The notes beneath the pieces were generated by a model. The model did no database searches, was not told the origin of the DNA, and was given only the letters and a program-made list of their open reading frames with translations. Shown in pieces: positions 1-34,382 of a stretch of DNA of 64,000 nucleotides. Made by a program: the position numbers and the translations under genes. Within the stretch, counting starts at the first letter, position 1; every line of letters begins with the position of its first letter. Source of the stretch: a virus; the IMG/VR virus record IMGVR_UViG_3300045996_001458, positions 18,068 through 82,067 of that record, one strand, 5' to 3'.

Positions 1-2
1 GG

Positions 3-395
3 TCACGACTCCTCCTCGTCCACTTCGACAGCCTGAAGCGCGGTGATGGCGGCCATCCGGTTCTCGCGGGTGCGCTTCTTGTCCCACGTCTCCACGGCCT
101 TGCGTGCGGCCCAGGACAGGTTCTGGTGGCGCAGGTTCTCCAGCACAGCCCGGGCCTCATCGCTGCCCGCGGGGGCGCAGAAGGCCAGCCGGAAGCCGTT
201 GGCGGCCGTGGACTTGGTCATCAGTCCGTGGATCTCGAACGTGTCCGTGCCGGCCGCGACGGTGAACGTCTCCGCCCACACCTTCGTTACCGTGGTCGTC
301 GTGACTCCGCGCAGTTGGCGGCGATAGTTGTCCTCGGTCCAGATCACCACCTCCGCTCCCGGCTTCAACCAGTCGGGGCGCTCCACTTCGGTCAT
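3..395 (-). CDS. Hypothetical early protein, 130 aa
   Basis: Function not recognised. The ATG at 395 follows a GGAAGGCGGAGGG ribosome-binding site and overlaps the stop of the upstream 30-aa gene (ATGA), so this start is preferred over an upstream GTG at 437. The N-terminal half is beta-rich (PGAEVVIWTEDNYRRQL); the C-terminal half is basic and helical (NLSWAARKAVETWDKKRTRENRM) with an acidic end. It is the last gene of the leftward early operon visible here; the operon probably continues past the window edge. Confidence 0.75.
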   Translation of the reverse strand: MTEVERPDWLKPGAEVVIWTEDNYRRQLRGVTTTTVTKVWAETFTVAAGTDTFEIHGLMTKSTAANGFRLAFCAPAGSDEARAVLENLRHQNLSWAARKAVETWDKKRTRENRMAAITALQAVEVDEEES

Positions 396-484
396 CCCTC
401 CGCCTTCCACCATCCGCAGCAAGGGCACCAGCACCACTCCCAGTCGTCGTCCGGTGTCGAGCGCACGAACACGTCGTCGGTCAT
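392..484 (-). CDS. Cys/Trp-rich micro-protein, 30 aa
   Basis: A 30-codon gene with ATG at 484 after GGGGAGAG, coupled by a 4-bp overlap to the next gene. The C-terminus CWCPCCGWWKAEG holds four cysteines and four tryptophans in the last stretch, so metal binding or membrane/RNA contact is possible. Too short for homology; support is the RBS, the coupling and typical codon use. Confidence 0.55.
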   Translation of the reverse strand: MTDDVFVRSTPDDDWEWCWCPCCGWWKAEG

Positions 485-515
485 TGCTCTCCCCTTCCGG
501 GAGTGAGAGGGATGG

Positions 516-740
516 TCAGAGGCCGAGCAAGCCGCCGGACTCGCGGCGCTTCCACCACACGTCCAGCCGACGGGACTTGCGGTTGCCCATGCGCCACTGG
601 ACGCCGCACCTTCCGGGGCAGACGCCACGCGTGCGCGGTCCGTGCGCCCGCTTGTCCCACGTGGCGACGGCGTGGCACTCGGGGCAACGGTGCGGCTTGT
701 CCTCGTTGCGGGTGACCCATCGCAGTTTGGCTGTGGTCAC
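516..740 (-). CDS. Small zinc-ribbon protein, 74 aa
   Basis: GTG start at 740 lies just after AAGGAGAG. The protein has CPEC near residues 20-23 and CPGRC near 43-47, a two-knuckle zinc-ribbon layout, then a basic tail (KSRRLDVWWKRRESGG). Such ribbons in phage early regions usually bind nucleic acid or host RNA polymerase; no specific role can be assigned. Confidence 0.65.
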   Translation of the reverse strand: MTTAKLRWVTRNEDKPHRCPECHAVATWDKRAHGPRTRGVCPGRCGVQWRMGNRKSRRLDVWWKRRESGGLLGL

Positions 741-771
741 GTCTCTCCTTGGTCTTGGTACGGGATATGGG

Positions 772-975
772 TCAGGACAGGGGGCGGAGTCGGGTGAGGT
801 CACCGGCCACGTTCAGGCGTTCCACCGTGAACACCGTCAGTTCGTCCGCCGGCTCCCCGTCGAGCCACCACGTGCCACCCTCCGGGTTGTAGGCGAGGCG
901 ACCGGAGGCGTACAGGGCACGGACCTGTTCCTCAAGGAGCTGGACGGCCTGGGCGATGTCGTCTGTGTCGGCCAT
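772..975 (-). CDS. Hypothetical protein, 67 aa
   Basis: ATG at 975 after GGAG. Residues 1-27 form an amphipathic helix (DIAQAVQLLEEQVRALYASGRL); the rest is a small beta unit (TWWLDGEPADELTVFTVERL). No family recognised. It lies in the run of separately initiated small genes at the left edge. Confidence 0.6.
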   Translation of the reverse strand: MADTDDIAQAVQLLEEQVRALYASGRLAYNPEGGTWWLDGEPADELTVFTVERLNVAGDLTRLRPLS

Positions 976-1027
976 GGTGCACTCCGTTCGGCTCGGTGGT
1001 GGGTGTTCGGCCCCTTCGGGGGAGGGC

Positions 1028-1348
1028 CTACGGCACTGACGGGGCGGAGGTCGCGGCGGCGTCTTCGAGGTGCTTCACCTTGGCCTGCAACCCGGCGATC
1101 TGCTCGCGCAACTGGTCCACGTACGTCTTGCCGTTCCACACCGGCTCGCCGTTCTCATCGGCGACCTCGTACGCCTCCATGTCCTCGAACACCACGTCCA
1201 GGCTGTACTTCCGCTTGTACCCGGAGCACTGAAGGCACAGAGACGGAACGCGCTCGTGCGCCTTCTCGACGGCCGATTCGTCGTCGTCAGCCTCGACCCT
1301 GATGGTCAGGTCGGCGTTCGGCATGAACCGGACAAGGAACTCGGGCAT
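1028..1348 (-). CDS. Hypothetical protein with C-terminal coiled coil, 106 aa
   Basis: ATG at 1348 after GAGGAGAAGAG. The N-terminal part (MPEFLVRFMPNADLTIRVEADDDESAVEKA) looks like a small alpha/beta fold; a single CLQC pair follows, and residues about 78-98 (VDQLREQIAGLQAKVKHLEDA) form a heptad coiled coil. Function unknown. Confidence 0.65.
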   Translation of the reverse strand: MPEFLVRFMPNADLTIRVEADDDESAVEKAHERVPSLCLQCSGYKRKYSLDVVFEDMEAYEVADENGEPVWNGKTYVDQLREQIAGLQAKVKHLEDAAATSAPSVP

Positions 1349-1438
1349 CTCTTCTCCTCGGGGTTGGGGGTCAGTCGGTCATCGGGACGAGACGACCGCA
1401 GGGGGCGGGGCGGGCGGTGGAGTGGTGGCCTCCCGGGA

Positions 1439-1756
1439 TTAGGCGTCGGTGTCCCACCGGAACGACCCGCCCTCGTAAGCGCAGGACCGGTCCGTGGTCT
1501 TGTACGTCGCGTCGCCGCCACCGTTGCCGCGCGCGTTGTTGATCGCCCACAGGTCGGCGTCCTGCACGGCCTCGTCGGCGCGGCGGAACAACTCGGCCAG
1601 CGGCGAGAACGCGTCGTACAGGTCGGCGTCGGTGCTGTCCATCAAGTCGCGGGCGGTGTGCAGGTGAGCGAGCGCCGCCTTGACGTGCCGGCCGACGAGC
1701 ATGGCCGTGGCCCGGTCCATGACCACGGGCTTGATGCCCTCCGGTTCGATGTGCAT
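1439..1756 (-). CDS. Hypothetical helical protein, 105 aa
   Basis: ATG at 1756 follows GGAAGGAAG; the upstream part of the open frame is arginine-rich and has poor codon bias, so it is excluded. The central region (RATAMLVGRHVKAALAHLHTARDL... LAELFRRADEAV) is a two-helix bundle. No family recognised. Confidence 0.65.
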   Translation of the reverse strand: MHIEPEGIKPVVMDRATAMLVGRHVKAALAHLHTARDLMDSTDADLYDAFSPLAELFRRADEAVQDADLWAINNARGNGGGDATYKTTDRSCAYEGGSFRWDTDA

Positions 1757-1825
1757 CGCTGCTTCCTTCCGGTCTGAACATCCGTGGCGTGGGCGCGTCC
1801 CCCGGCCGCGCCCCACCATGGCGGT

Positions 1826-2125
1826 TCAGGCGGACGCGCGCGGCAGGACGCTGACCGGGACCTCGCGGGTGTCGGGGTCGCAACCGAGGGGGCAGCCGTA
1901 GGTGCAGGAGTGGATCAGCGCGTACCGGAGCACCGCGCCCTGCTTGCGGACGTACAGCTTGCAGCCGTAGCCGCACTCCCGCATGACCTGCACCTCGGAC
2001 CACTCGCGGACCGGCTTGACGTAGATCCGGACGTGCTGGGCGATCTCCCGGGCCTCGCTGCCCACGATCCGGATGCGGGTGGGCGCGGCGGTGTCGGTCG
2101 TGGACTGGGTGAGCGTGGCGGTCAT
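1826..2125 (-). CDS. Cys-rich hypothetical protein, 99 aa
   Basis: ATG at 2125 after GGGAGACGAC. Six cysteines fall in a pattern CGYGC ... CTYGCPLGC, consistent with a small metal-binding knuckle. This is the first minus-strand gene downstream of the triple TGTCATGACA operator, so it is probably expressed from the divergent promoter there and controlled by the ribbon-helix-helix protein. Confidence 0.65.
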   Translation of the reverse strand: MTATLTQSTTDTAAPTRIRIVGSEAREIAQHVRIYVKPVREWSEVQVMRECGYGCKLYVRKQGAVLRYALIHSCTYGCPLGCDPDTREVPVSVLPRASA

Positions 2126-2160
2126 GTCGTCTCCCTTGGCGGCGGTTCCGGGCCTTCCCC

Positions 2161-2233
2161 GGTGTCATGACACCACGGTACAGTGGGTGTCATGACACCG
2201 GCAAGAGGTTCAGCAGAGAAATGTCATGACACC
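2161..2233. promoter_or_regulatory. Triple palindromic operator between divergent genes
   Basis: Three copies of a palindrome: GGTGTCATGACACC at 2161-2174 and 2186-2199 (exact) and TGTCATGACACC at 2222-2233. Centre spacings are 25 and 35 bp. A -10-like TACAGT (2179-2184) points right and TACCGT points left between copies one and two, so bound protein would block both promoters. The adjacent plus-strand ribbon-helix-helix protein is the obvious candidate regulator. A further exact TGTCATGACA occurs at 35231-35240. Confidence 0.7.
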
Positions 2234-2428
2234 CTTAACGGCGTGACCGGCAGGAGCGGGAAGGGCACCGCGCGGCAGACCGTCCGCATCGACGAGGACC
2301 TGTGGGCCAAGCTCGGCGCGGCCTGCGAATCCGCCGGCATTGACCGGTCCGCCGCGTTGCGCGCGTTCGCCCGCTGGTACGTCGGGGAGGGCGACGCCGA
2401 ACTCCCCGAGCGCCCTGCTCCCGAGTAG
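2192..2428 (+). CDS. Ribbon-helix-helix DNA-binding protein
   Basis: The only plus-strand gene in the left 30 kb. The conserved part (ARQTVRIDEDLWAKLGAACESAGIDRSAALRAFARWYV) has one beta strand followed by two helices, as in Arc/CopG ribbon-helix-helix proteins that bind palindromic DNA as dimers. The start is uncertain: ATG at 2192 would be leaderless from the TACAGT -10 box and lies inside the second operator; a GTG at 2243 would leave only the DNA-binding domain. Likely an autoregulated early repressor. Confidence 0.75.
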   Translation: MTPARGSAEKCHDTLNGVTGRSGKGTARQTVRIDEDLWAKLGAACESAGIDRSAALRAFARWYVGEGDAELPERPAPE

Positions 2429-2437
2429 CCCTCCCGG

Positions 2438-2575
2438 TCAGGCAGCGGACGGAGACGGCGGGTCGAACACCGCGGCCACCTCGTCCAACGCCTCGTACAT
2501 CTCCTCCAGTGTCAGCCCCGGTCCGTCCGCCGTCACCGACCATCCGGCGGCGGGGACCTCCCATGCCCAACTCAT
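2438..2575 (-). CDS. Small acidic protein, 45 aa
   Basis: Short gene with ATG at 2575 after GAGGAGACGAC. It begins MSWAWEVPAAGWSVTADGPG and carries an acidic helix (LTLEEMYEALDEVAAVF). It is convergent with the ribbon-helix-helix gene (10 bp between stops). Function unknown. Confidence 0.55.
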   Translation of the reverse strand: MSWAWEVPAAGWSVTADGPGLTLEEMYEALDEVAAVFDPPSPSAA

Positions 2576-2615
2576 GTCGTCTCCTCTCGTGTCGTCAGTC
2601 GTGCGGTCACGCTGG

Positions 2616-2894
2616 TCACGATTGCGTCCGGGTGAGCTTCAGCCAGGACCACTGGTCGTCGTGCTCGGTGATCTCGTAGCCGTAGCCGTGCTTCATGGCC
2701 AACAGGTCGGCCTGCGGAACGTTGGCCAACTGGATGGCCATCTCCAGGACGGGCGGACGCTCGTACTCCAGTCGCGCGTCGAGCGCGCCCATCTCCCAGC
2801 CCGCCACGTAGGACTGGTCGTCGTGGGGGCCGCCCTTGGTCGCGACGGTGACAAACGGCATCACCAGCCCGTAGCCCTGCTCTTCCTCGCTCAC
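2616..2894 (-). CDS. Hypothetical protein, 92 aa
   Basis: GTG at 2894 after GAGGAGGCAGC, overlapping the stop of the RuvC-like gene by 4 bp, so translation is coupled. Sequence features are VTVATKGGPHDDQSYVAGWEMGALDARL and a tryptophan-containing C-terminus. No family recognised. Confidence 0.65.
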   Translation of the reverse strand: MSEEEQGYGLVMPFVTVATKGGPHDDQSYVAGWEMGALDARLEYERPPVLEMAIQLANVPQADLLAMKHGYGYEITEHDDQWSWLKLTRTQS

Positions 2895-3448
2895 GCTGCC
2901 TCCTCGTTCGTCGGCCTGAGCTTCGCCACCACGTCGGCCCGGTAGTCCGTCACCGGGTACGGCAGGGGTCCATCGAGCAGGTGCACACCCACCGCGGCCA
3001 GCCACAGGGCGTCCCGCTCGTCGGAGCTGGTCGCCAGCACCTCGGGGAACGCCTCAGCCATGGCGGCCTTCATGGCGGCCTTGTCCGCACGCCCGTTGCC
3101 CGTCGCGTAGAGCTTCAGCGTGTTCGGGTGCACTTCCACCACCCGGGCACCCCGGTAGACGAGCGCCGAGATGGCCAGATACCAGAGGCCCGCGCGTTCG
3201 TTGGTCGAGGTGGACGCCGGGTTCGGCACCATGGCCTCCACGACCACGAGGTCGGCCGGGTGGACCCAGTCCACGATGGCAGTCTTGAGCCGGTGCAGCA
3301 CTTCGCAGCGATCCATGGGGTCGGCGAGCGTGGTCACGCCCGCCTCGCCCTTCTTGGCCGTCTCCATCACCGTGGTGCCCAGACCCCAGGTGATGCGGGC
3401 CAAGCCGCTGGAGGTGAGCGAGAGGTCAAGGCCGACGACGGCGCTCAC
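2891..3448 (-). CDS. RuvC-like Holliday junction resolvase/nuclease
   Basis: About 185 aa. It starts with the RNase H-fold signature VVGLDLSLTSSG, followed by VVVEAM (second acidic residue, about residue 75) and a late acidic pair in SSDERDALWLAAVG, matching the D-E-D/D layout of RuvC-type resolvases. GTG at 3448 is preceded by GAGGAGCCCTG. In phages this fold resolves four-way junctions from recombination-dependent replication or trims DNA before packaging. Exact substrate unknown. Confidence 0.75.
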   Translation of the reverse strand: MSAVVGLDLSLTSSGLARITWGLGTTVMETAKKGEAGVTTLADPMDRCEVLHRLKTAIVDWVHPADLVVVEAMVPNPASTSTNERAGLWYLAISALVYRGARVVEVHPNTLKLYATGNGRADKAAMKAAMAEAFPEVLATSSDERDALWLAAVGVHLLDGPLPYPVTDYRADVVAKLRPTNEEAA

Positions 3449-3792
3449 CAGGGCTCCTCGGTGCACTCGGCGTTCGCTTCCCAGCCTGTCGGGTATGCCT
3501 TGACCAGCTCGTCCCAGACGCCCACGCCGCTGTGCACCGCTCGCAGTTCGCTGCACGGGTAGGCCGCACCGCTCTTGGAGCAGAGCGCGCCGTCCTCGAA
3601 CATCGGGCCGTGGTCGGCGAATACGGCAGCCGTGGTCAGGTCACCTGTCGACAGCAGCCGGTCTGCCTCCTTGGCGTGGGCCCCGTTGACTGCCATGAAC
3701 GAGCCGGGCAGCCATGCCACGATGCCCGCCGCCGCCACGTGGATCTCGGCGTCGAGGAGCATCCGCTCCACGTCGCCCTCGTCGGGGCTCAC
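3445..3792 (-). CDS. Hypothetical protein, 115 aa
   Basis: GTG at 3792 overlaps the upstream gene's stop. The N-terminal segment (VERMLLDAEIHVAAAGIVAWLPGSFMAVNGAHAKEADRLL) is helical; three cysteines follow in the C-terminal half. Family not recognised. It is co-transcribed with the RuvC-like nuclease. Confidence 0.6.
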   Translation of the reverse strand: MSPDEGDVERMLLDAEIHVAAAGIVAWLPGSFMAVNGAHAKEADRLLSTGDLTTAAVFADHGPMFEDGALCSKSGAAYPCSELRAVHSGVGVWDELVKAYPTGWEANAECTEEPW

Positions 3793-6635: not shown

Positions 6636-7408
6636 TACAGCTCCTCGTCGTAGGCCGACTGGTCGGCCGGGTTGGTCCATGCCTGGTGTCCGCCGACCAC
6701 TCGCAGGTGCGGCTGTTCTGGCTCGTCTTCCCAACGGCCTTGGTTCAGCCAGGTCGCCGGATGGGGGGTGAACTTCGGGTCCTGTCCGGTTCGGATCGCG
6801 GCGAACCTTTGCGCTGCCGCCACCACGGCCGCCGAGTCCGCGCCGTCCTTGAGCGCCTTGGCCCATGCCTTCTCGGCTGCCTTGCGGCCGATCTTGCGGG
6901 GGTAGGCGGCGTAGAAGCGGGCGAAGCTCTCGGCCGTCGAACGTAGAGATGACTGCTCCACTGCTCCACTGCTCCACTGCTCCACTGCTCCGGGCACTGA
7001 GTCTCCGTGGAGTTCCTCACTGTCGTCCTCAGGGAGCGGCTCAGTGAGTCCTTTGTGCATCGGGCATGGTGGGAGCCGGGATGGGGTGGGCCGGTTGGGC
7101 TTCTGGTGCTCCGACCAGTTCACGCAGTGGATGTACTTGCGACCGTCGACTTCGTACCGACAGATAGGTCCTTGCTCACCACGGAGCCCAACTTGCATCT
7201 GTTCGAGCCAGTCGTCGATGCGTCCGGAGGTGATTTTCTCGTCGTGAGGGAAGCAGTCACCGGCGATCCGCTTGGGCGCGTCGATGCCCCTGCCGCGGTC
7301 GTCCAGGTACCCCCAGAGGAGGACGAAGAAGTAGCGCATCTCGAACGGCCAGGACGCCACGAGGTCGGAGGTCCGCAGTTCAGGCTTGATGGAACGGATG
7401 CGCGCCAT
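6635..7408 (-). CDS. Replication initiator (DnaD/O-like)
   Basis: 257 aa. The N-terminal domain (MARIRSIKPELRTSDLVASW... RYFFVLLWGYLDDRGRGIDAPKRIAGDCFP) is typical of phage replication-initiation proteins with a winged-helix fold. A low-complexity linker with QWSSGAV repeats follows, then a C-terminal partner domain (FARFYAAYPRKIGRKAAEKAWAKAL) like those that contact helicase loaders. ATG at 7408 overlaps the HNH stop (TGATG). Five 8-bp repeats inside the linker may form the origin, as iterons do in the lambda O gene. Confidence 0.78.
   Translation of the reverse strand: MARIRSIKPELRTSDLVASWPFEMRYFFVLLWGYLDDRGRGIDAPKRIAGDCFPHDEKITSGRIDDWLEQMQVGLRGEQGPICRYEVDGRKYIHCVNWSEHQKPNRPTPSRLPPCPMHKGLTEPLPEDDSEELHGDSVPGAVEQWSSGAVEQSSLRSTAESFARFYAAYPRKIGRKAAEKAWAKALKDGADSAAVVAAAQRFAAIRTGQDPKFTPHPATWLNQGRWEDEPEQPHLRVVGGHQAWTNPADQSAYDEEL
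6952..6991. repeat. Five tandem 8-bp repeats in initiator gene (candidate origin)
   Basis: Five exact head-to-tail copies of ACTGCTCC occupy 40 bp within the linker coding region of the replication initiator. The unit is not a multiple of three, so gain or loss of one copy shifts the frame. Position between the DNA-binding and partner domains mirrors the lambda origin. Either an origin or a slippage-prone tract; the sequence alone does not decide. Confidence 0.6.
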
Positions 7409-18039: not shown

Positions 18040-18404
18040 AGGGACACCTCCGTGGCGTCCGGCGCGATCGGGGACAGCGGCTCGCCAGCCGTGATCTGCT
18101 GCCGCCACTCGTAGGCCAGTTCGCCTGCGTACGAGTCGGTGAAGATGCCGTCCGGTCCCAACGCCCACGGCACCAGGCGGTCGGCAAGTTCCGGGTCGAG
18201 GCGGCGCAGGTTCTCCAGCAGGATGACGATGGTCGTGTGGTGGATGAACCACGCCTGACTCATCGACCGGGTCTGCTTTGACAGGTCGAGGTCCAGCATC
18301 GCCGCAAAGTTGGCCTGCGCGCGACCAAGGGCGTCGTCGATGAACGCGGCGGACGTTGTGCCGGCGTCTGTCGGCGTTGCCGCCGAGGGGATGGGGGTGG
18401 ACAT
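18036..18404 (-). CDS. Hypothetical protein, probable paralogue of 8000-8332
   Basis: 122 aa. ATG at 18404 after GAGGAGACCCCC. FHRPEL-type helices and ELAYEWRQQITAGEPLSPI recall the protein at 8000-8332 (EMRWQWREQLAAGVPLTDV), with the same order of elements. Function unknown; internal duplication is likely. Confidence 0.62.
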   Translation of the reverse strand: MSTPIPSAATPTDAGTTSAAFIDDALGRAQANFAAMLDLDLSKQTRSMSQAWFIHHTTIVILLENLRRLDPELADRLVPWALGPDGIFTDSYAGELAYEWRQQITAGEPLSPIAPDATEVSL

Positions 18405-27721: not shown

Positions 27722-27963
27722 GCCGCACCGTCCACCGGCAGCGGCCCGTAGGGCACCACGTCGAACGTCACGCGGGTGGTGTCGGTCTCCGTGTCGTACA
27801 CGGCGTGCTTCGGGGTGAACTTCTCGCCCATCGTGTTCGGGCCGACGATCATCGTCGGGAACGACCGGGCGTCGGCGTACACCACACCGGGGTAGGTGGC
27901 GGCGAACTCCTTGGCGAACTTCACTGTGGGCTCCTCGGCGGTAGGAGAGGTACGGGGGTTCAT
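27718..27963 (-). CDS. Hypothetical protein, 81 aa
   Basis: ATG at 27963. VKFAKEFAATYPGVVYADARSFPTMIVGPNTMGEKFTP then a beta C-terminus (TTRVTFDVVPYGPLPVDG). It is overlapped by the stop of the IS110-like gene, hence in the same transcript. Confidence 0.56.
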   Translation of the reverse strand: MNPRTSPTAEEPTVKFAKEFAATYPGVVYADARSFPTMIVGPNTMGEKFTPKHAVYDTETDTTRVTFDVVPYGPLPVDGAA

Positions 27964-28853
27964 GCGGCACTCGCCCTGTCCGGCCCGGGCGCAGGGACGT
28001 GCACATCGGTGACGCCGTGCAGTCGTCGGGCCTCGATCCACAAGTCCTTCAGCACCGTCTTGGCGATGGCACGCAGAGCGCGACCGTGCTGGTGCGCGGG
28101 CGGCAACGGGGAGCCGACTTCGGCCGGCTTGCCACTGGGTCCGCATTGTTTGCAGGGCACGTTGTGCACCGCGTCGGCGTACTTCGCCCGCGTCTCGTCG
28201 TAAACCGTGCGGTACTTCGAACCGGACGGGGCCTTCACGCACGAGGTGGCGATGAGCCACGCCCGCTTGCGGGCCTCTTGGGACCAGTTCGACTTCTGTC
28301 CGCGCGTCCGCTTGGGCGCGGTTGAATGGCTCCCGCCAGCGTTCACCATCTGGGTTTCGAGCACATAATGGCTGGCGGGAAGTTGGGTCCCAGTGGTGCG
28401 GGCGCCTTGGGTTTCGTCGCACGAATGACCACTGGGAAGTGTGTGGTATCCGCAGTACGCCCAGAGTTCGGACACGGTGCGGGGCCGCTGGTGCAGGGTG
28501 TTCCAGTACGGGTCGCCGATCTCGCCGAGCAGGCGGGCCAACTGCTTCTCGCCGACGCCGGTGGCCTGTTTGATCCACGGACCCCACTGCGAGCGGCGCA
28601 TGTGCGACTGGAGCTGCTTGATCGCCTGGTCCTCCACGGCGGCCAGCGCTTCCAGCGACAGCGCGATGCGCTTCACGTCACGGTGGTCCTCGGGGAGTCC
28701 GAGGCTGCGGCGGATGCCGTCGTCGTCCACCTCGGTTGAGGTGAGCTGACGGAACCGGTTCCCGCTGGCGACGCGCAGGGACTCAAGGTCGTCCACCTGG
28801 GACGCGAGGATCTTCAGGAGCGGGTCGAAGAGCAGACCGTTGGGGTTGTTCAC
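27960..28853 (-). CDS. IS110-like (Transposase_20) C-domain protein, 297 aa
   Basis: The N-terminal 90 residues are helical and lack a DEDD/RuvC nuclease. Residues 94-136 (GVGEKQLARLLGEIGDP ... LWAYCGYH) match the helix-hairpin-helix of the IS110/IS116 transposase C-domain; residues 175-300 continue it (KRTRGQKSNWSQEARKRAWLIATSC, HGRALRAIAKTVLKDLW), with an added CKQCGPSG knuckle. Residues about 140-175 are encoded by two copies of the hairpin unit that also forms the array upstream. GTG at 28853 follows AAAGGAG, only 18 bp from the array. A domesticated RNA- or DNA-hairpin-dependent protein is inferred. Confidence 0.7.
   Translation of the reverse strand: MNNPNGLLFDPLLKILASQVDDLESLRVASGNRFRQLTSTEVDDDGIRRSLGLPEDHRDVKRIALSLEALAAVEDQAIKQLQSHMRRSQWGPWIKQATGVGEKQLARLLGEIGDPYWNTLHQRPRTVSELWAYCGYHTLPSGHSCDETQGARTTGTQLPASHYVLETQMVNAGGSHSTAPKRTRGQKSNWSQEARKRAWLIATSCVKAPSGSKYRTVYDETRAKYADAVHNVPCKQCGPSGKPAEVGSPLPPAHQHGRALRAIAKTVLKDLWIEARRLHGVTDVHVPAPGPDRASAA
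28331..28437 (-). repeat. Two hairpin units inside the IS110-like gene
   Basis: Unit A 28331-28380 has arms TCCCGCCAGC/GCTGGCGGGA and unit B 28388-28437 arms TCCCAGTGGT/ACCACTGGGA; both enclose a 30-nt loop with core CGAAACCCA (minus strand), separated by the linker AGTTGGG. Same design as the upstream array. They encode protein residues 140-175, between two conserved blocks of the Transposase_20 domain. Confidence 0.88.
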
Positions 28854-28870
28854 GGTGACTCCTTTGGTTA

Positions 28871-29157
28871 CCGACCAGGGCGCATGTCATCTGGGTTTCG
28901 CATCGTCATTGGCCCGGTCGGGAAGTTGGGTGCCGAAGGCGGTCCCGCCATGGGTTCCGCAAGCACGTTGGCCTTCGGCAAGTTGGGTGCCCGGACGGAA
29001 AGACCTTGGGTGTCGGACGGCCTTTGGTCCGGGCAATCTGAGTGCCAGCGGGGCGCAGGCTGTATGGGCCTCGGCAGGAGCGTGGCCCGGCTGGCGAGTT
29101 GGGATGCCAGCCTGACGGGAACCCTTTGGGCTTTGCGTACATCCTGGTCAGGCTGGC
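28871..29157 (-). repeat. Array of five variable-stem hairpin units upstream of IS110-like gene
   Basis: Five head-to-tail units fill the only intergenic gap of this operon: U1 28871-28921, U2 28932-28979, U3 28989-29034, U4 29044-29095, U5 29106-29157. Each has 8-11 bp arms that differ in sequence between units but pair within a unit (for example GCCGAAGGC/GCCTTCGGC, GCCAGCCTGAC/GTCAGGCTGGC). Every loop is exactly 30 nt: CA, nine variable bases, a core near CGAAACCCA, nine variable bases, C. Linkers are near ACCCAACTT (minus strand). It would lie in the 5' leader of the gene, which is where IS110 elements encode bridge RNA. Confidence 0.9.
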
Positions 29158-29163
29158 AAGTCA

Positions 29164-29658
29164 TCAGTGCTTCAACACCTCTCGACCGACCTCGGGGTCG
29201 AGCGATGCGACGGTGTCCACCCCGAACTCCGTCACGGCGGTCAGCAGGCGCTCGTAGCGCTCCGCCTCCGCCAGAACCTCGGCGGCCTTGCTCCGCCGCG
29301 AAGAGACCAGGTACTCCAGGTCCCGCGCGGAGCAGTCACCGAGACGCTTCCACGACTCGCCCACGTACACGGAAGCGGAGAGTTCGGCGCTGTACCAGTC
29401 GATCAGGGCGGCCGTCGCGGCACTCGCCGTTCGCTGACCGGACTTCGTCTTGTACGTCGCCGGATCGGCCGCGGGCTGCACGACCGGGCGGGACAGGACG
29501 TGGCGGACGTACTCCCGCAACGTCACCGACACCACCACGTGCGCCTCGGCGTCCGTCAGGTTGGACAGCAACTTCTCCGTGACCACACCGGGGTCCGGGT
29601 CGTGCTTGCCCAACTCGGCGATAGCCGTCCGGAGATCGCTCGAAGACTCGATGCTCAC
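29164..29658 (-). CDS. Hypothetical protein, 164 aa
   Basis: ATG at 29658 overlaps the antirepressor stop. Helical: TEKLLSNLTDAEAHVVVSVTLREYVRHVLSRP and SKAAEVLAEAERYERLLTAVTEFGVDTVASL. Proteins of this appearance often follow KilAC antirepressors in actinophages. Its stop is 7 bp from the hairpin array, so array transcripts probably arise by read-through of this gene. Confidence 0.62.
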   Translation of the reverse strand: MSIESSSDLRTAIAELGKHDPDPGVVTEKLLSNLTDAEAHVVVSVTLREYVRHVLSRPVVQPAADPATYKTKSGQRTASAATAALIDWYSAELSASVYVGESWKRLGDCSARDLEYLVSSRRSKAAEVLAEAERYERLLTAVTEFGVDTVASLDPEVGREVLKH

Positions 29659-30485
29659 GCCACACCGTCCTCATCCAGGACGAGCGGAGCGGTCCCACCC
29701 ATCCGCTTGTGCAGATAGGACAGACCAGCCACCGTCACCCGCACCTGCGGCTTCGCCGGCACCTCCTCCTTGGTGTAGGAGTCGACCCGCGTACGGGGCC
29801 GCAGGGTGACGTGTGCCGAGTGGTTCGAGTACGGCTTGTCACCGGGGCCGATCAGCCGCCAGGACCGCAGCAGCTCGAACAGCCGGCGCTGGCCGGTGGA
29901 GATCGACGGATCCCGGTTGAGGATGTAGGCGGCCTCCCGCACCGAGTAGTCCGCGCCGGTGTCCGCGAGGACGTCCCACGACACGGCGCGGGGACGCAGC
30001 TCGATGACCTCGGCCTCGGCGGTGTCGGCACGCAGCGCTTCACGATCCGCGCGGTCCGCCTCGGCGATGACCATCTCCGCCAGCTCGCGGCGACCGATGG
30101 CAGTGACGTCCACGCGGGGTGCGGTCTCCGCCTCGCGGGTCTTCACAGCGAAGTAGACACGCGCCTCGGCGACGGCCTTCTTCGTGTCGTCACCGGCCAT
30201 CGCGGTCAGGTACGCCGCGAAGCGGGTGAGCCGGTAGTCGTCCAAGCGCTGGTTGCCCCACCGCCCGCCATCACTTCCCGCGGCCAGGAAGTGATGGTCT
30301 GCCGAATCGGCACCTTCGACCAGCGACAGGGAGTACCTGGCCTTGGAGATGACGGCCGCGAAGTTCTCCCACTTCAGGTAGTCCATCACCGGGGCGAGGT
30401 CGCGCCCGGTCCAGAACTCGCCGGCCTCGTCGGTGCGACGGATGGCATCGAACTGGGACGAGCCGAAAAGGGTGAGGTCGGTCAT
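29655..30485 (-). CDS. Phage antirepressor with KilAC domain
   Basis: 276 aa. The N-terminal part (FDAIRRTDEAGEFWTGRDLAPVMDYLKWENFAAVISKA ... RLTRFAAYLTAMAGDDTKKAVAEARVYFAVKTREAE) is the BRO/DinD-like damage-linked domain. The C-terminal part (VSWDVLADTGADYSVREAAYILNRDPSISTGQRRLFELLRSW, HVTLRPRTRV) is KilAC/ANT. Such proteins bind and inactivate the lysogeny repressor or otherwise promote lytic growth. It is the first large gene of the early operon. Confidence 0.85.
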   Translation of the reverse strand: MTDLTLFGSSQFDAIRRTDEAGEFWTGRDLAPVMDYLKWENFAAVISKARYSLSLVEGADSADHHFLAAGSDGGRWGNQRLDDYRLTRFAAYLTAMAGDDTKKAVAEARVYFAVKTREAETAPRVDVTAIGRRELAEMVIAEADRADREALRADTAEAEVIELRPRAVSWDVLADTGADYSVREAAYILNRDPSISTGQRRLFELLRSWRLIGPGDKPYSNHSAHVTLRPRTRVDSYTKEEVPAKPQVRVTVAGLSYLHKRMGGTAPLVLDEDGVA

Positions 30486-30723: not shown

Positions 30724-30901
30724 ACCGGAAACCCTAGGTGGAGTTACCGGTAACTACAAGAACTTGGACCTCCGACTTCCGGTAATTTCGGGTAGCCGGT
30801 TGACCACTTGCCGTCAACATCCACTACCTGTAACCAGTTGTTTACCCGGCTAGCTCCAGTTGGATGTAGATGGACCTAGTTGGATCGGGCATGATGACCC
30901 T
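30724..30901. promoter_or_regulatory. Divergent switch promoter region with operators
   Basis: Non-coding gap between the excisionase-like gene and the XRE repressor. It has a perfect palindrome GTTACCGGTAAC (30743-30754), related CCGGTAA boxes nearby, and a direct repeat AGTTGGAT at 30858-30865 and 30878-30885 (20 bp apart, two helical turns) just before the repressor start. The first set lies toward xis, the second toward the repressor, as expected for a two-regulator switch. Confidence 0.65.
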
Positions 30902-31297
30902 ATGACGACAGACGCGGGACGTGTATGGCTCGGCGAGAAGGTGCAGGAGCACCGCAAGCGACTGCGCCTCAGTAAGGAAGAGGCGGCCCGACGGGCCGGT
31001 GTCAACGTCAAGACCTGGACGCAGGTCGAGCGGGGCGAGGTGGTTCGCGACACCACCTACGTCGGAGTCGAGGAGGCGCTGGAGTGGCAGAGCGGTAGCG
31101 CAGAGGCCGTACTGGACGGCAACGATCCAGTCGTGGTCGAGCGCGCCCAGGAAGAGCCACCCGACGAGGTCGCCGAGCTCGCCCGGCTCTTGGAGGTGGT
31201 ACGGGACAAGTTCGGGGACTCCGTGTACACCGAGGCGATCCGTGTCGTCGAACGCACACGTACCGACACGAAGCGTGACCGTCACAACCTTGCGTAG
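30902..31297 (+). CDS. XRE-family lysogeny repressor candidate
   Basis: 131 aa. The N-terminal HTH (WLGEKVQEHRKRLRLSKEEAARRAGVNVKTWTQVERGEVVRDTTYVGVEEAL) is XRE/Cro-C1 type; a helical C-terminal part (DEVAELARLLEVVRDKFGDSVYTEAIRVVERTR) probably dimerises. There is no RecA-type cleavage domain. It is divergent from xis/antirepressor and precedes the integrase, so it is the best immunity repressor candidate. The ATG at 30902 has no clear RBS and may be leaderless. Confidence 0.8.
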   Translation: MTTDAGRVWLGEKVQEHRKRLRLSKEEAARRAGVNVKTWTQVERGEVVRDTTYVGVEEALEWQSGSAEAVLDGNDPVVVERAQEEPPDEVAELARLLEVVRDKFGDSVYTEAIRVVERTRTDTKRDRHNLA

Positions 31298-31780: not shown

Positions 31781-32977
31781 ATGGGCAGGCCGCCGCTTGA
31801 ACCTGGCACCGCAGGCAGCATCACCGTCACAGCCCTACCGGAGGGCGGCCATGTCGCCCGATGCCGGTTCGGCGACTACGACGGCGTCACCCGCCCGGTC
31901 GAGCGTCGCGGAAAGAACCAGCAGGCCGCGCGTGCGAACCTCCAGAAGGCGCTGAAGGATCGCAAGCGACTGGGTGGCGACGGTGAGATCGGCCCGGAGA
32001 CCTTCGTGAAGGAGCTCGCCGAGCTGTGGTTCACCAAGATCGAGGAGCGGGTGGCCGCCGGCAAACGGTCGCCGGGAACCGCGCGGACCTACCGCATCTA
32101 CATGGACTCGCTCGTGATCCCGCTCATGGGCAAACTCCGCCTCCGGCAGGTAACCGTGGGACGAGTCGACGCGCTCATCGCCGCGGCAGTGAAGGAGAAA
32201 GGGCCGGGTGCGGCGAAGACCACGCGGGCGGTGATCTCGGGCATCCTCGGCATCGCCGTCAGGCACGACGTACTCGACGCGAACCCGACCCGCGAGGCCG
32301 AGGTGATCGAGTCCCCCGACAAGAAGCCGGCCAGGGCGCTGACGCTGGACGAGGTGGCGCTCATACGTGGGAAGGTCCGCAGCGACAAGCGGTCCGCGGC
32401 GCGGGACCTCCCCGACTTGGTGGACATGCTGCTTGCCACGGGACTACGCATCGGTGAGGTCTGCGCGATCACCTGGGACTCGCTGAATCTCGACGCGCGG
32501 ACTGTCGAGGTTCGGGGGGTGGTGATCAGAGTCAAAGGCCAGGGCCTCACCATCAAGACGTATCCGGGGTCCAAGACGAAACACCGGACGCTGCTTCTTC
32601 CTCGATGGGCCGTCGCGATGCTGCTCGATCGGCAGGTGAGGCAGATACCGAACGAGTGGAACGTGGTGTTCACGTCCCCAAGGGGATTCCTGCGCGACCC
32701 CAGTAATACAAACGCGGATCTGCGGGACGTTCTCGACAAGGCCGCCGTCGATGATCAGGGCATGGAGGTGTTCCCTGCGATGGAGTGGGTGACGAGCCAT
32801 GTCCTCGGCCGCAAGACGGTGCTCACGCTGATGAACCTCGCCGGGCTTCCGGCCAGCGCGGCGGCGGACCAGGCGGGACACTCGAAGGTGTCGATGACGC
32901 AGGACCACTACTTCGGCAGGAAGACCACCGACACGGGGGCCGCAGACCTGCTGGACGACCTGTTCGAGTCCAAGTAG
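31781..32977 (+). CDS. int: Tyrosine integrase
   Basis: 398 aa. An arm-binding N-terminal region, a SAM-like core-binding domain (FVKELAELWFTKIEERVAAGKRSPGTARTYRIY) and a catalytic domain with Arg in LLATGLRIGEV, Lys/His region, AGHSKVSMTQDHYFG with the nucleophile Tyr. The middle box reads SHVLGRKT, that is H-x3-R where H-x2-R is usual. Arm-type repeats and a tRNA-Asn 3' core follow directly. Catalyses site-specific integration and, with the excisionase, excision. Confidence 0.9.
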   Translation: MGRPPLEPGTAGSITVTALPEGGHVARCRFGDYDGVTRPVERRGKNQQAARANLQKALKDRKRLGGDGEIGPETFVKELAELWFTKIEERVAAGKRSPGTARTYRIYMDSLVIPLMGKLRLRQVTVGRVDALIAAAVKEKGPGAAKTTRAVISGILGIAVRHDVLDANPTREAEVIESPDKKPARALTLDEVALIRGKVRSDKRSAARDLPDLVDMLLATGLRIGEVCAITWDSLNLDARTVEVRGVVIRVKGQGLTIKTYPGSKTKHRTLLLPRWAVAMLLDRQVRQIPNEWNVVFTSPRGFLRDPSNTNADLRDVLDKAAVDDQGMEVFPAMEWVTSHVLGRKTVLTLMNLAGLPASAAADQAGHSKVSMTQDHYFGRKTTDTGAADLLDDLFESK

Positions 32978-33527: not shown

Positions 33528-34382
33528 TCACAGGTTCGAGGCAACTGTAGTCAGGCAGGTCACGCTGTCGTTCGGCGTCATGGCCATCCCGGAGAGCTGG
33601 GAGAACATCGCCTCGTAACGATTCAGATCCGCAGCCTTCTCCAGGTACAGCGACCCGCGGCCGTTCTCCAGGTAGACGGTGTTCATGCGCGGCTCGTCGT
33701 CGAACCCGAGCAGAAGGAACGGCGCCGTCATCGCCGGGTGTGCGCCCGCCTCGAACGGGAGCACCTGGATCGTGACGTGCGGAAGGTCGGCCAACTCGGC
33801 GAGGTGCCGCAGTTGCTCCGCCATGACCTCCCCGCCGCCGACCTTGCGTAGGAGCACGGCCTCGTTCAGGACGGCGTGCAACGTGGGCGGTTCGTCGTCC
33901 GTCAGCCGCTGCTGTCGGGCGCGGCGCAGTTCCACCTGCCTGTCCAGTTCCGGCGGCGTGGACTCGGGCCGGTTCGCCAAGGCGACGGCGCGAGCGTACC
34001 CCGGCGTCTGGAGCAGGCCCGGGATCAGTTCCGACTCGTAGGCGCGCAGCGTCGAGGCGTCGTGCTCATAGCCGAGGAAGAGCCGGAACCAGTCCGGCAC
34101 GAGCTTGGAGTACGTCACCCAGTAGCCAGGCTGGTTGGCCTCTTCGGCGAGTTCGAGCAGGCGGGCACGGTCGGCGTCGGCCATCCCGTACTTGGGCGCG
34201 AGCAACTTGATGTACATCGGTTTGATCAGTTGCTTGCCGCCCTCGATCTTCGACAGCGTCCCCGGCGTCACCTCGATCTCCGCGGCGGCTTCCTTCGGGG
34301 TCACGTCCGCGATGGTGCGGAAGCGGCGGAGCTCGTCGCCGAGCTGCCACCGACGGATCGTGGGACGTGACTTGCTGGGCAT
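33528..34382 (-). CDS. XRE regulator with DUF5753 (WhiJ-like)
   Basis: 284 aa. N-terminal HTH (LGDELRRFRTIADVTPKEAAAEIEVTPGTLSKIEGGK) followed by DUF5753 (YEHDASTLRAYESELIPGLLQTPGYARAVALA, RQQRL, LPHVTIQVLPFEAGAHPAM). Standard length for actinomycete WhiJ-like regulators; partner is the DUF397 gene. ATG at 34382. Probably represses a promoter in the 34383-34685 gap. Could act on host developmental genes in the lysogen; this is inference from the family. Confidence 0.9.
   Translation of the reverse strand: MPSKSRPTIRRWQLGDELRRFRTIADVTPKEAAAEIEVTPGTLSKIEGGKQLIKPMYIKLLAPKYGMADADRARLLELAEEANQPGYWVTYSKLVPDWFRLFLGYEHDASTLRAYESELIPGLLQTPGYARAVALANRPESTPPELDRQVELRRARQQRLTDDEPPTLHAVLNEAVLLRKVGGGEVMAEQLRHLAELADLPHVTIQVLPFEAGAHPAMTAPFLLLGFDDEPRMNTVYLENGRGSLYLEKAADLNRYEAMFSQLSGMAMTPNDSVTCLTTVASNL

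Follow-up and report, generated by a model that had tools for sequence, protein, structure and literature searches.

What does an array of tandem hairpins do beside a phage gene resembling a transposase? The array considered here lies in a 64,000 nucleotide (nt) stretch of viral DNA, here called the window, which covers positions 18,068 to 82,067 of the 82-kb IMG/VR virus record IMGVR_UViG_3300045996_001458 and has a G+C content of 68.6%. Five hairpin units are found at 28871–29158 on the minus strand, upstream of an open reading frame for a 297 amino acid (aa) protein. A preliminary description took these for a possible multi-guide system resembling the bridge RNA of IS110 elements. The analysis reported here indicates instead that the locus is very probably a TIGR-TasA system of the stem-loop array type, judged by protein family and array anatomy, in an actinophage-like virus.

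The TasA protein and its guide units

The 297 aa protein is encoded at 27960..28853 (minus strand) with a GTG start, and the Shine-Dalgarno sequence AAAGGAG is present at 28859–28865 on the same strand. The protein matches the NCBIfam model TIGR_Tas_endo (NF052498) with an E-value = 2.1e-64 and 217 bits, the cut-off being 100, and it almost certainly belongs to the TIGR-Tas family. When the family profile is compared with PDB, the hits are TasR (9mty, E-value = 1e-26) and TasH (21kl, E-value = 1.3e-15). An AlphaFold2 (AF2) model of the window protein begins at coiled-coil helices and has a predicted local distance difference test score (pLDDT) of 88 and a predicted template modelling score of 0.81. 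With this model as a Foldseek query, TasR and TasH are the sole significant matches (E-value about 1e-7), and matches to Nop5 and Prp31 are weak. No nuclease domain is found by Pfam in the 297 aa sequence, and neither Pfam nor the AF2 model displays a DEDD/RuvC-like N-terminal domain. Thus the protein, a solo Nop-domain Tas protein, is assigned as TasA because it matches the TIGR-Tas family and carries no N-terminal nuclease or DEDD domain. The gene had been described as one with a Transposase_20 domain; Pfam gives no such match for the window protein, and by profile comparison the label reflects a weak relationship only. In a tasA locus of a Nocardia suismassiliense contig (NZ_LT985366.1, L090, 5491–7887), the gene is split by an intein with Hint and LAGLIDADG domains.

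Each guide unit consists of a stem, CA, a 9 nt spacer A, a core near CGAAACCCA, a 9 nt spacer B, C, and the other arm of the stem. A box C motif (CCA) precedes and a box D motif (CG) follows most of the 9 nt spacers. The five tandem units upstream of tasA are all present with 30 nt loops of this form, as first described, and two further units are found in frame within tasA, which brings the total to seven; the loop is 30 nt long in all seven.

Unit 1 (29105..29158, minus strand, as are all units that follow) has a 12-bp stem, spacer A GGATGTACG, core CAAAGCCCA and spacer B AAGGGTTCC. Unit 2 (29044..29095) has an 11-bp stem with one mismatch, and its A, core and B are CGCTCCTGC, CGAGGCCCA and TACAGCCTG. 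Unit 3 (28988..29035) shows a 9-bp stem and the segments AAGGCCGTC, CGACACCCA and AGGTCTTTC, and unit 4 (28931..28980) a 10-bp stem with ACGTGCTTG, CGGAACCCA and TGGCGGGAC, in the same order. In unit 5 (28871..28921; A ATGACGATG, core CGAAACCCA, B GATGACATG) a bulged T in the 3′ arm leaves the continuous helix short; the end of this unit is 5 nt ahead of the tasA Shine-Dalgarno sequence. The in-frame units also carry the core CGAAACCCA: unit 6 (28388..28437) has a 10-bp stem with A TTCGTGCGA and B AGGCGCCCG, and unit 7 (28330..28381) an 11-bp stem with A TTATGTGCT and B GATGGTGAA. Pairing of the stems within each unit is therefore borne out overall, the mismatch in unit 2 and the bulge in unit 5 being the departures. 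A common core and common linkers had also been described; the core does stay near CGAAACCCA, with that of unit 1 deviating, and the linkers vary from ACCCAACTT to ACTCAGATT. An Rfam scan of five loci gave no family matching the guide units.

Stem covariation and spacer turnover

First-order random sequences yield 0–1 strict units per 64 kb. The window holds five strict units (seven in all) inside about 830 bp and no strict unit elsewhere, and a chance origin of the window units is excluded. The 311 nt array folds with −130.2 kcal/mol (z = −4.0), and none of 100 shuffled sequences was equally stable.

Covariation of the stems was assessed in 55 non-redundant related loci by a non-circular procedure, in which loops were picked by the motif CA N9 CG N4 CCA N9 C and a stem was not required. 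Loops on the same strand as tasA and within 1.5 kb of it were counted as near. The 292 loops near tasA have on average 7.82 of 9 flanking positions in Watson-Crick pairs; the value is 2.84 of 9 for 95 loops elsewhere and about 3.0 of 9 when the partners are slid by one position. All four Watson-Crick pair types occur at most stem positions. The high flank pairing near tasA, set against that of loops elsewhere and of slid partners, shows that the stems covary, and the compensatory change first noted within the window is thus seen across the set of loci. Guide units outside the tas locus were not found in the rest of the genomes examined. In one record (L001, IMGVR_UViG_3300020061_000027), single guide units are scattered among about 20 tRNA genes and a tmRNA gene at positions 1–3600 and 7300–7355, and one guide unit falls within a helicase-like gene, on its sense strand.

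The cluster A mycobacteriophages carry five units at fixed positions. Their DNA identity is 97–99% over tasA and its upstream partner gene (described below) and 93–96% over the genomes. The stems are 83–100% identical, and the spacers 33–50% identical, i.e. close to unrelated. Spacer distances are bimodal: two alleles are either the same or nearly so, or they are unrelated. In pairwise comparisons of A and B both spacers differed in 273 cases, both were the same or near in 34, and only 12 were discordant. Spacers A and B are replaced together, in place. Gordonia phages behave likewise, with 90% identity in the stems and 31% in the spacers. From these comparisons the guide pairs appear to be under strong diversifying selection, or else subject to a dedicated replacement process.

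Spacers A and B share a positional base bias, with A/T at position 1 and G/C at position 6, which is expected if equivalent dimer subunits read both. A two-strand targeting system would be expected to combine fixed hardware with guides that change in pairs. No robust resemblance of A to B, or to the reverse complement of B (rc(B)), was seen once redundancy was removed. The idea that the alleles of unit 5 follow wobble codons was considered and is not supported. In unit 2 of cluster A (L006, about 2715–2780) the loop core CACGGCAACTCGCCGCCA may fold as a small hairpin between the spacers and constitutes an expanded loop repeat.

Relatives, the partner gene and units inside tasA

A tblastn search shows tas in 85 phage records, of which 77 are from phages of Mycobacterium, 5 of Gordonia, and one each of Rhodococcus, Arthrobacter and Microcystis. 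Profile searches add 58 more viral loci and 6 loci in actinobacterial genomes. About 75 records (RefSeq duplicates counted in) belong to cluster A, Fromanvirus-type mycobacteriophages, which grow on Mycobacterium smegmatis mc2 155; their tas genes are currently annotated as "transposase", "DNA binding protein" or "hypothetical".

Homologous phages that carry the gene nearly always carry the array as well, hairpin units being found in 53 of the 55 non-redundant loci. The strict unit is absent from four loci (L073, L074, L076, L080). L076 and L080 do have clear hairpin arrays, in which the boxes are altered and the loops longer, and no hairpin array was found in L073 and L074. The L076 (3445–3840) and L080 (3740–3970) loops measure 38–47 nt and have altered box motifs, e.g. 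CGCGAAAGCACA. These two arrays suggest that box sequences coevolve with TasA. The cyanophage Mvi-JY20 of Microcystis (L021, 3905–4630) has a divergent Tas-like gene (E-value = 1e-18), and at this locus neither a convincing stem-loop unit of the window type nor the partner gene was found.

The minus-strand order in the window is a KilAC antirepressor gene, the gene for a 164 aa partner, the five-hairpin array and tasA. The partner gene (29164..29658, minus strand; phrog_4604, PHROG match E-value = 6e-19) is directly upstream of the array. Its homologue is directly upstream in every tas locus examined except that of the distant Microcystis phage, and is upstream of the array in all actinophage tas loci examined. 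A partner profile matches 58 of 58 records tested, and an independent search for the partner gives 80 records from Mycobacterium, Gordonia and Rhodococcus phages. The partner is helical in its AF2 model (pLDDT 89). It has no significant Pfam match and no relative in PDB by profile or fold search, and its viral matches are to its own family.

Further upstream in the same-strand cluster is the KilAC-domain antirepressor (29655..30485, minus strand; Pfam PF03374, E-value = 2.3e-13; PHROG anti-repressor Ant). A helix-turn-helix (HTH) protein (30860–31297) and a tyrosine integrase (31781–32977) are encoded on the plus strand. The tas locus of the window is thus situated by a lysogeny switch consisting of integrase, HTH and antirepressor genes. 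In Gordonia phages it is found near repressor, Cro and excise genes. The window also encodes an HTH_31/DUF5753 regulator at 33528–34382 (minus strand), of a type common in Streptomyces, which is a hint at the host group.

Units in frame were counted in the 55 non-redundant loci, each of which holds both tasA and the partner gene. In 25 of these, one to five units are present inside the tasA reading frame, in nearly all cases at one site of the Nop domain. Unit 6 of the window encodes part of a disordered TasA loop; the insert, residues 147–171, is disordered in the AF2 model and mostly has a pLDDT below 50. The TasA proteins of cluster A, prophiFSAT01-1, Rich, Morrissey and Peregrin have no insert, and thus TasA does not need it. 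In the Gordonia phages BENtherdunthat (gp59; L004, 2581–3855) and Spooky (gp50; L005, 2584–3840), the N-terminal extensions annotated for the protein result from reading through the guide array, which makes misannotation of the start codons probable.

Proposed role and relation to known systems

The antirepressor, partner, array and tasA probably share one transcript, from which TasA and a host RNase would release single hairpins. A nuclease-free Nop-domain TasA dimer may then bind single hairpin units. Spacer A would pair with one target strand and spacer B with the neighbouring segment of the opposite strand, and one strand of the target would thus read A followed by rc(B). The dimer would use A and B to open an 18-bp site and hold on to it, leaving the DNA uncut. 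Since TasA carries no nuclease, the likely outcome is target DNA that is occupied and bent, not cut. Such binding might block a competing phage or prophage in its transcription, replication or integration, and the rapid change of guides would stem from conflict with other phages or with mobile elements. Processing of units inside tasA, or beside its ribosome-binding site, may also limit TasA synthesis and so act as feedback. A role in RNA-guided, non-cutting DNA binding in competition between mobile elements is about as likely as not.

The searches for targets weigh against this role. The preliminary description had proposed a search for paired matches of the variable segments in phage and host genomes, and none above chance appeared in the searches made. 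The target strand was taken as A followed by rc(B), our own derivation from the published TIGR-Tas cleavage geometry (an 8 nt 3′ overhang and the "C − 5 rule"). Matches of this form to the own genome, with gaps of 0–2, were none above re-paired controls, and 378 spacer pairs compared in six geometries with 1.27 Mb of tas-bearing phage DNA, with gaps of 0–3, gave no excess. Unit 3 of the window has a one-mismatch match with a gap of 2 in tasA of L059/L060, which was not counted since the re-paired controls also give a few distinct one-mismatch matches. Twelve pairs (9 mycobacteriophage, 3 Gordonia), taken without a gap, were compared with 50,697 phage records by blastn of padded 18-mers; none was matched in full, and the sole hit was a 17 nt chance match. 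For two pairs with gaps of 0–2, viral contigs gave zero matches for one and, for the other, one probable chance match that falls in an unrelated large virion-type gene. In 397 genomes of one mycobacterial genus, again with gaps of 0–2, two pairs had no match.

A different possibility, which we consider unlikely, is that TIGR-TasA serves the phage's own programme, with guides that target the phage genome itself or the attachment region of the host, for lysogeny control or help to the integrase. In accord with this, the locus is flanked by antirepressor, repressor-like and integrase genes, and in Gordonia phages repressor, Cro and excise genes are found nearby; an aid to the integrase has been proposed for TasA (PMC12045711). 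However, the own-genome search with gaps of 0–2 gave no match above chance, and own or attachment targets should be kept in close kin, whereas the spacers are nearly random among genomes of 93–96% identity.

Far less probable is a recombinase of the IS110 type, guided in DNA insertion by a bridge RNA of several units. The protein does resemble the RNA-binding half of IS110 proteins, a structural link of TIGR and IS110 has been reported (PMC12045711), and two low scores are in keeping with this: a close homologue reaches 14 bits against the IS110 model, whose cut-off is 140, and Peregrin TasA 14.2 bits against Transposase_20. But the homologue has 232 bits on TIGR_Tas (cut-off 100), the window protein gives no match to the IS110 family profile at E-value 0.1, the DEDD domain is absent, and the array consists of many one-loop units, not one two-loop bridge RNA. 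What stands of the preliminary description is therefore an array of guides, each with two 9 nt segments around a fixed core, and a protein related to the IS110 RNA-binding half; the bridge RNA and the recombinase do not. In view of the protein family and the published stem-loop arrays of the same anatomy, the bridge-RNA interpretation is replaced by TIGR-TasA, which is related but distinct. A third explanation, that the hairpins are mobile palindromic elements of the Rickettsia palindromic or repetitive extragenic palindromic type inserted in and around the gene by happenstance, would accommodate units in frame within coding sequence and the units among the tRNA genes of L001, but it is highly implausible: where units lie in frame (25 of 55 loci) they do so at one site in the protein; stem sequences vary from unit to unit, with the box motifs and 9 nt spacings kept; unit positions are fixed while spacers change; and the rest of the genomes examined lack units.

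Taking the locus as TIGR-TasA, the actinophage clade offers handles on the role of a nuclease-free TasA, the targets of TIGR guides, and the gain and change of array spacers. Cluster A phages form a natural series with near-identical genes and different guide pairs at fixed positions, and the gene that always neighbours the locus offers a concrete candidate for a TIGR component that is missing. Tentatively, and with some doubt on our part, the clade might constitute a distinct TIGR type with an obligate phrog_4604 partner, A+B pairs swapped in place within fixed address-like stems, and in-frame guide maturation that brakes TasA synthesis. If true, the phrog_4604 partner could supply the component that TIGR systems are missing, be it for adaptation, processing or effector function.

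Among known systems, IS110 with its bridge RNA has a distantly related RNA-binding domain and likewise paired guide segments; the system described here differs in its many one-loop units, the absence of a DEDD catalytic domain and the lack of a family match at the cut-off. Box C/D small nucleolar ribonucleoproteins (Nop5/Nop56/Nop58) have the Nop fold in common and likewise carry guides between C/D-type motifs, as set out in PMC12045711, whereas here there is no fibrillarin or L7Ae partner and the predicted target is DNA, not RNA. The dual-repeat arrays of TIGR-TasR and TasH have in common the Nop domain, 9 nt spacers A and B and the box C CCA, but in the present loci no RuvC/HNH nuclease is found and hairpin stems replace the edge repeats. 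The TIGR-TasParB operon (PMC12045711) also combines tasA with a conserved neighbour gene and surrounding arrays; as described there its arrays are dual-repeat, and the partner reported here has no significant Pfam or PDB fold match.

The closest system is TIGR-TasA with stem-loop arrays, published by Faure et al. (2025; PMC12045711), for which a Peromyscus gut contig with 13 stem-loops is an example. The stem-loop kind of TIGR array is thus already known, contrary to the preliminary description, whose authors knew of no system of this form. The main text of that paper gives TasA no clear protein associations, save ParB-like genes in dual-repeat systems, and makes no mention of a constant upstream partner, of guides inside the tas frame or of spacer turnover in place. 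A solo Nop-domain TasA is common to both systems, as far as the published account goes, and so are tandem hairpins whose palindromic stems vary, linkers between the units, and two short spacers, each with box C and box D motifs on its flanks. In the loci reported here, phrog_4604 is always directly upstream, many relatives carry units in frame within tasA, and most loops keep to a length of 30 nt and have a core that resembles the loop repeat.
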